The translations under genes and the position numbers were made by a program. Positions 31,761-34,496 of a stretch of 64,000 nt of DNA are shown in pieces. The stretch is from Clostridiaceae bacterium (GTDB taxonomy: Bacteria > Bacillota > Clostridia > Saccharofermentanales > Saccharofermentanaceae). Below the pieces are notes generated by a model that was not told the DNA's origin, ran no database searches, and worked only from the letters and a program-made list of their open reading frames with translations. The stretch covers positions 62,001 through 126,000 of the forward strand of contig JAAYCT010000024.1 in assembly GCA_012729635.1 (NCBI GenBank), read 5' to 3'. Positions within the stretch are counted from its first letter, which is position 1, and every line of letters begins with the position of its first letter.

Positions 31761-32516
31761 TCAGCCCGCGTTAATCTCGCTCCTTCTCCAAAAGGCATTT
31801 CTTTTCACGCCGTATGTGAAGAATACTTTCCCTTCCTCCATCTGTCTCATCGCTTCCTCCACAATCTCATTCGGATCGGAATGCAAATAGATCCCCCGAC
31901 CCCTTTTCATTCCGGGCTGAAGACCTCCGAGCACCCCGAAAACGGACTCCATCATTCCGGGATATACCGCCTGAACCCGAATATTTGTGTCGGTTAATTG
32001 AGCCTTTAGCCCTTCCGTGAATTGGCGGATAAAAATCCCGGAGGACGAAAACAGGGATGAGCCTCCGTGGTTTCGCCCGAATCCGTCCGGGGAAATGTTG
32101 ATGATTCTCCCCTCATTCTGATTGATCATTCTTCGTAACACCGTCAATGTCAGCGAAACAACCGTATTCATCTGAAAGGATGTCACTCTCTTGGCAAGGG
32201 CGGCATTCATTTTCACGAATCGCTCACTCTCTTCTTCTGCCGCATTATTGATCATCACGTCCGGGCATGATAAATCAATTTGGCCCGAAAGAAGCGCGAG
32301 ACCCCTTCGCTCGGAAAGGTCGGCAGCCAAGCCGATTACGGGAACACCGAACGATTTCTCCATTTCTTCGGAAAACGCTCGAATTCCCCTTTTGTCCTTC
32401 CCGGTCAGAATCAGCGAATAGCCGCGTCGGGCAAAATACTCCGCGTACGCCGGCCCGAGCCCGTACAGCACACCGGTAATCAATACGGTACGATTTTCTC
32501 TCTCATCCATTTCCAT
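31761..32516 (-). CDS. SDR-family protein lacking the catalytic triad
   Basis: This 251-residue Rossmann-fold protein of the short-chain dehydrogenase/reductase family has a cofactor motif ITGVLYGLG (near residue 13) and MINNAAE (near 90). The catalytic Ser-Tyr-Lys are replaced. The second Ser of the usual IINVSS is Pro143. The YxxxK position, located by gap-free alignment to FTEGL, reads F156-SSS-G160. It therefore should bind a nucleotide but not reduce a carbonyl by the usual mechanism. The start at 32516 has GGGAGGGG seven bases upstream and lies within the end of the MarR gene (14-base overlap), so the two are co-translated. Confidence 0.83.
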   Translation of the reverse strand: MEMDERENRTVLITGVLYGLGPAYAEYFARRGYSLILTGKDKRGIRAFSEEMEKSFGVPVIGLAADLSERRGLALLSGQIDLSCPDVMINNAAEEESERFVKMNAALAKRVTSFQMNTVVSLTLTVLRRMINQNEGRIINISPDGFGRNHGGSSLFSSSGIFIRQFTEGLKAQLTDTNIRVQAVYPGMMESVFGVLGGLQPGMKRGRGIYLHSDPNEIVEEAMRQMEEGKVFFTYGVKRNAFWRRSEINAG

Positions 32517-32958
32517 TTTTTTCCCCTCCCTGTGCCGCAATGTTTTTCAACAGCTCAATCAGCGCCCGACTTTCCCTTTCACTGAGCGGCTCAATCAACT
32601 GCGCGAAAAACTCTTCTTCGTTCTTCTCATGGTCACGGACCACTTTTCTCCCCGCAGATGTCAGTTCCAGTACAAAAGTCCGTAAATCATCCGGATGAAT
32701 GCTTCTGCTTATCATTCCCTTTTGTTCCAATCGGGCAATCAATCCGGTGACCGTGCTTTTCGGAAGATTCAAAGCCTTGGAGATATCCCCCACGACCGTA
32801 CGCGGTTTGTTGCCGATGATTCTGGCAATGTCGGTTTCCGTTTCCGACAGAACCTGCTTCCCGCTTGCGAATCCGGGGCCGTAAAGCGCCTTATACCGGC
32901 TGAATACGCCGTACAGAAGCGTCGACAGTTCTCTGATGTTTTCTTTTTTTTCTCTCAT
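32503..32958 (-). CDS. MarR-family transcriptional regulator
   Basis: This 151-residue winged-helix repressor has the recognition segment DISKALNLPKSTVTGLIARLEQKGMISR and the wing SIHPDDLRTFVLELTSAG. It overlaps the SDR gene. Its promoter carries two copies of an inverted repeat (see 33001-33042), so it most likely controls itself and the SDR gene. The inducing ligand is unknown. Confidence 0.9.
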   Translation of the reverse strand: MREKKENIRELSTLLYGVFSRYKALYGPGFASGKQVLSETETDIARIIGNKPRTVVGDISKALNLPKSTVTGLIARLEQKGMISRSIHPDDLRTFVLELTSAGRKVVRDHEKNEEEFFAQLIEPLSERESRALIELLKNIAAQGGEKNGNG

Positions 32959-33063: not shown

Positions 33064-33103
33064 AAAAAATCGGGAAATAACCGTTTTCAGGTTATTTCCC
33101 GAT
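33064..33103 (-). terminator. Terminator after the antiporter gene
   Basis: On the minus strand ATCGGGAAATAACC pairs perfectly with its complement across seven bases, followed by TTTTTTG. Confidence 0.9.
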
Positions 33104-33127
33104 CGACAAACAACGGGCGTATTCTCG

Positions 33128-34360: not shown

Positions 34361-34407
34361 AAAAAAAGCCGACACTCCATGAACAACGTTCACAGAAGTC
34401 ATCAGCT
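34361..34407 (-). terminator. Riboswitch terminator (expression platform)
   Basis: A long hairpin pairs AGCTGA with TCGGCT, ACTTC with GGAGT, and TGAAC with GTTCA, ending in seven T. Its 5' arm reuses aptamer bases 34407-34391, including the pseudoknot strand, so aptamer folding with fluoride should prevent termination. Confidence 0.85.
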
Positions 34408-34451
34408 TAAAAAGCGGTTCGGCGTCTTCGCCGGGGAGAACCTCATCCCCC
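34391..34451 (-). ncRNA. Fluoride riboswitch aptamer (crcB motif)
   Basis: The RNA reads GGGGG-AUGAGGUU-CUCCC for P1, then an extra hairpin GGCG-AAGA-CGCC, then GAACCGCUU-UUU-AAGCUGAUGACUUCUG. These match the consensus GG-AUG-...-CC, AAC-GC, GCUGAUG. The loop GAGGUU can pair fully with GACUUC (with G-U pairs) to form the required pseudoknot. Only the last bases (CUGUG rather than CUAC) deviate. A terminator follows, and the controlled gene is a cation/proton antiporter. Confidence 0.9.
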
Positions 34452-34467
34452 AATATTTCACCGGATC

Positions 34468-34496
34468 ATATTATCGCCTGATTTTAATCTTGTCAA
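34468..34496 (-). promoter_or_regulatory. Promoter of the riboswitch-antiporter transcript
   Basis: TTGACA (34496-34491), 17 bases, and TAATAT (34473-34468) on the minus strand, placing the start about ten bases before the aptamer. The ~260 bases between this promoter and the divergent ABC-F promoter hold nothing I can identify. Confidence 0.75.

Follow-up and report, generated by a model that had tools for sequence, protein, structure and literature searches.

On the minus strand of the window, the 64,000-nucleotide stretch of clostridial DNA analyzed here, a promoter-like site, a fluoride riboswitch aptamer with an overlapping intrinsic terminator, and the gene for a cation/proton antiporter follow one another and are succeeded by a terminator-like hairpin (Table 1). 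A preliminary description had proposed the riboswitch and suggested an Rfam search as a check; cmscan returned a full-length RF01734 match at 34459–34386 (–), with a score of 44.9 bits (E 3.2e-9) against a cut-off of 34. The conserved segments named in that description (GGGGGAUGAGGUUCUCCCC, GAACCGC, and GCUGAUGACUUC) are present where it had placed them, and the full pseudoknot partner that it had claimed is borne out by this aptamer, in which GAGGU and ACUUC can pair with one G-U pair, and by its relatives, in which the pairing is kept. Across 34 relatives, the five pseudoknot pairs are 93.5% retained, and three of them have changed on both sides. When P1, P3, and the pseudoknot were taken together in 34 antiporter-leader aptamers, 93.8% of cells were paired compared to 41.8–63.3% in slid controls, and 8 of 13 aptamer pairs had both-side changes in this set. 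Folding of the aptamer alone is not unusually strong (z −0.9). The RNA at the locus is a typical, well-formed representative of RF01734 and, judged by its sequence, would be expected to bind fluoride.

Table 1. Features of the riboswitch–antiporter locus, in window coordinates.
Feature	Position	Strand	Evidence
Promoter-like site TTGACA-17-TAATAT	34468..34496	(−)	Consensus scan, 10/12 matches
Fluoride riboswitch aptamer (RF01734)	34386..34459	(−)	44.9 bits, E 3.2e-9; covariation in 34 relatives
Intrinsic terminator hairpin, overlapping aptamer 3′ arm and pseudoknot strand	34366..34408	(−)	−19.2 kcal/mol, z −5.2; conserved in 51/55 leaders vs 19/275 shuffles
Seven-T run closing the terminator	34361..34367	(−)	Sequence
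NHA2/SLC9B-type CPA2 cation/proton antiporter, 395 aa	33128..34315	(−)	PF00999 E 2.4e-45; best solved relative NHA2; ion-site residues conserved
Terminator-like hairpin with T-rich tail, 3′ of the antiporter gene	33068..33104	(−)	Scan

A mutually exclusive terminator ending in seven T had also been described, and folding agrees: the segment 34412–34359 has a predicted energy of −19.2 kcal/mol (z −5.2), with a hairpin at 34408–34366 that runs into the T-run at 34367–34361. Aptamer and terminator exclude each other because the hairpin takes in GCUGAUGACUUC, which provides the 3′ strands of both P3 and the pseudoknot. Since the 3′ arm of the aptamer is thus reused in a seven-T terminator, the predicted logic of the switch is fluoride-ON. 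Under a rule that required a terminator of −12 kcal/mol or lower starting within the aptamer 3′ arm, 51 of 55 leaders had such a hairpin, whereas only 19 of 275 dinucleotide shuffles (7%) did. The hairpin at 34408–34366 is absent from the list produced by a consensus terminator scan, probably because its long stem is interrupted.

Approximately 1.6 promoter-like sites of the observed quality are expected by chance in the region, and the position of this one just before the aptamer supports it. For the hairpin downstream of the antiporter gene, shuffles likewise give a comparable chance level, and its position after the gene supports it. This hairpin makes the antiporter the only gene of the unit, which looks like a promoter, riboswitch, single gene, and terminator. 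Beyond it, a MarR-family regulator gene and a short-chain dehydrogenase gene (31761–32958, minus strand) have a promoter-like site of their own.

An NHA2-type antiporter in a genome with neither Fluc nor CLC

The antiporter scores 155.5 bits against PF00999 (cut-off 26.2; E 2.4e-45), in agreement with the CPA-type assignment of the preliminary description, and matches no named NCBIfam equivalog. Among proteins of solved structure, its best match is mammalian NHA2 (SLC9B2; E 1.2e-41), for which Glu214, Arg431, Asp277, Asp278, and Lys459 are functionally important (PMC8850199). The corresponding residues of the antiporter are E95, R312, D158, D159, and K340, and these five ion-site positions are 98–100% conserved among 109 relatives; equivalents of the Glu214–Arg431 pair, the DD motif, and Lys459, which constitute the NHA2/SLC9B signature, are therefore all present. 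The antiporter shares these features and the PF00999 CPA2 fold family with the Na+(Li+)/H+ exchanger SLC9B2/NHA2 but is bacterial, is under fluoride-riboswitch control, and lacks the long N-terminal part that precedes the transport domain (395 compared to 537 residues). From these residues, the group is predicted to carry out electroneutral cation/H+ exchange, because in NHA2 the replacement of lysine by arginine accompanies electroneutral exchange.

Neither crcB nor a CLC gene lies at the locus, as had been noted, and neither CrcB/Fluc (PF02537) nor CLC (PF00654) was found in the genome to which the window belongs, which is 96.65% complete. This genome has two PF00999 genes and one fluoride riboswitch over the cut-off. 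The next match, considered as a second riboswitch, reached 16 bits and was rejected as chance.

Association of the riboswitch with antiporter genes in relatives

Of 73 related loci from GTDB genomes, 30 show RF01734 over the cut-off immediately ahead of the antiporter gene. Protein identity at these 30 loci is 44–85%, and the hosts are Clostridia, Erysipelotrichaceae, Acholeplasmatales, and a zetaproteobacterium; the association also occurs in Mycoplasmatota. In an order-level sample, 15 of 21 riboswitches over the cut-off directly precede the gene for this antiporter. Approximately 50 of the 62 antiporter genomes in a class-level sample (Clostridia) have a riboswitch just upstream, 27 of them detected by RF01734 and the remainder by a model built from antiporter leaders, which gives rough E-values and whose matches lie on the strand of the gene and just upstream of it. 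No conserved operon partner was found downstream of the riboswitch-controlled antiporters, and the antiporter is usually the sole gene under the switch.

On a FastTree tree, the riboswitch label changes 19 times compared to 36 times in shuffles (row L132 was counted as riboswitch-bearing despite two intervening genes). The simplest reading is an early association with later losses, because riboswitch-bearing rows fill nearly all deep branches. Repeated loss would also suit a riboswitch that has decayed at this locus and left the gene constitutive, a reading that we regard as highly improbable because the core elements, the pseudoknot, and the terminator are all intact here and in a relative with 85% identity.

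A tight, mostly rumen group of antiporters (L045–L071 and relatives) has lost its riboswitch, and in most of these loci a lactate racemase-like gene (Lar_N) follows. Lar_N was considered as an operon partner and rejected, as it is a conserved neighbor only behind these riboswitch-less antiporters, which may have been co-opted for a different function.

Near-exclusion of the antiporter and Fluc/CrcB

The class sample comprises 391 genomes, of which 76 carry CrcB (75 over the cut-off) and 62 the antiporter. CrcB occurs in 1 of 62 antiporter genomes compared to 75 of 329 others (one-sided Fisher p = 8e-6, with kinship between genomes ignored), and the single genome with both, G556, has an antiporter match of 39% identity. 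At the genus level, both genes occur in 5 genera compared to 11.4 expected (p = 0.009, kinship again ignored); in g115, g165, g36, and g88, different species carry CrcB or the antiporter, and no one genome carries both. Fifty further genomes picked for carrying the antiporter contained no CrcB over the cut-off, and 14 of them contained a CLC. In the order sample, CrcB is present in 5 of 148 genomes and never together with the antiporter, a result that is not significant on its own. Antiporter and Fluc/CrcB are almost mutually exclusive in these counts, which include some incomplete genomes.

The possibility that all CLC matches are fluoride exporters was ruled out, as most of those in riboswitch–antiporter genomes have GREGP or a variant without GREGV/T. 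By this filter motif, 2 of the 30 riboswitch–antiporter genomes among the 50 further genomes have a CLC-F-like gene, and 28 of the 30 have neither that gene nor Fluc. Elsewhere in the same order, two loci from genomes without the antiporter (L023 and L025) show the classical CLC-F arrangement, in which a CLC gene with a GREGV filter comes immediately after a fluoride riboswitch.

A proposed role in fluoride resistance

We think it probable that the locus combines a transcriptional fluoride-ON switch with an NHA2-type exchanger that provides a pH- and cation-based fluoride defense and stands in for Fluc; fluoride binding at this locus, the transport activity, and the pH-clamp mechanism are all parts that we infer. 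The preliminary description had put forward a fluoride or acid-stress role, which the NHA2 type of the protein and its near-replacement of Fluc in these bacteria make more specific. Without fluoride, the terminator would form and the antiporter would be off; fluoride with Mg2+ would lock the pseudoknotted aptamer, block the terminator, and allow the one gene to be made. Its product, predicted to exchange Na+ (or another cation) for H+ electroneutrally, would be the fluoride defense of cells that lack Fluc and CLC-F, by management of pH and cations. HF enters as a weak acid, and fluoride, once trapped, tracks the pH gradient. In exporter-less cells, the extent of fluoride accumulation depends on this gradient (PMC11077948). 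A 1:1 cation/H+ exchanger could link the gradients of pH and of the cation and thereby lessen both the acid load and fluoride trapping. In an acidic medium, it would presumably move protons in against cations, which would limit trapping; after an abrupt influx of HF, the exchange could reverse and relieve acidification. Counter to this proposal are genome G556 with both Fluc and the antiporter, the rumen group without a riboswitch, and the two riboswitch–antiporter genomes with a CLC-F-like gene. Antiporter and exporter can coexist: in Clostridioides difficile, a single riboswitch operon contains both a CLC and an NhaP-type antiporter (PMC11477304).

The near-exclusion of Fluc would be explained more simply if the antiporter itself exported F−, by exchange or co-transport with another ion, and so replaced Fluc directly. 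That the antiporter is usually alone under the switch and that 28 of 30 genomes lack both known exporters fit such an activity. Every residue required for cation/H+ exchange by NHA2 is kept, however, and PF00999 proteins are not known to transport anions. Opposed by this conserved site, direct F− export seems quite unlikely to us and less likely than defense through pH and cations. Marginally less likely still is its broadest form, in which riboswitch-controlled NHA2-type antiporters would be a third family of fluoride-resistance transporters that export F− and replace Fluc and CLC-F in Clostridia and in other groups as well.

The antiporter could instead be an auxiliary gene for acid or salt stress in cells from which an unrecognized exporter, encoded elsewhere, removes fluoride. 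Riboswitch-linked antiporters have been published as pH homeostasis genes (PMC11139923), and many genomes of the order have neither known fluoride exporter. This arrangement would leave the avoidance of Fluc by antiporter genomes unexplained, and no other riboswitch over the cut-off exists in the window genome; we consider it unlikely.

Relation to known systems

The riboswitch shares its aptamer sequence, P1, P3, pseudoknot, and transcriptional ON switching by strand exchange into a terminator with RF01734 (the crcB RNA motif) and differs in nothing essential. The terminator here takes the P3 3′ strand besides the pseudoknot strand, a variant that has already been described (PMC13273304). Among the gene classes linked to these riboswitches, Na+/H+ antiporters rank second in frequency, behind exporters (PMC11139923); they were reported in Baker 2012, as cited in that paper. 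A cation/proton antiporter behind a fluoride riboswitch is common to the present locus, the Baker 2012 antiporters as presented there, and the C. difficile CLC–NhaP operon (PMC11477304). The present locus differs in having only the antiporter behind its switch and in belonging to a genome with neither CLC nor Fluc. The pairing is thus already published and the single locus is ordinary. The family-level pattern of association, terminator, and Fluc exclusion is what we add, and the interest lies there. In the mostly open-access literature, we found no earlier report that assigns the group to the NHA2 type or describes its near-exclusion with Fluc, and a search for fluoride resistance together with cation proton antiporter found no paper. 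The role of the known pair has been vague. With a defined protein group that usually lies under the riboswitch and hardly ever occurs in a genome with Fluc, "helps with pH" can be sharpened to a claim open to test, namely that the exchanger alone can carry fluoride resistance. Culturable species are available in Youngiibacter, Alkalibacter, Proteiniclasticum, Acidaminobacter, and Fusibacter.

Other genes near fluoride riboswitches

At four loci of this order (L019, L021, L089 at 1049–2866, and L132), a fluoride riboswitch precedes a gene pair in which a NifU-like gene comes first and a GGGtGRT gene (PF14057) second. L089 has separate riboswitches for this pair and for the antiporter, and in genome G002 the antiporter lies approximately 0.6 kb behind such a pair. 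Two genomes of genus g3 (L029 and L030) have matches just over the cut-off with no clear fluoride gene behind them; in L030, an antiporter fragment (residues 302–345) directly follows the aptamer.
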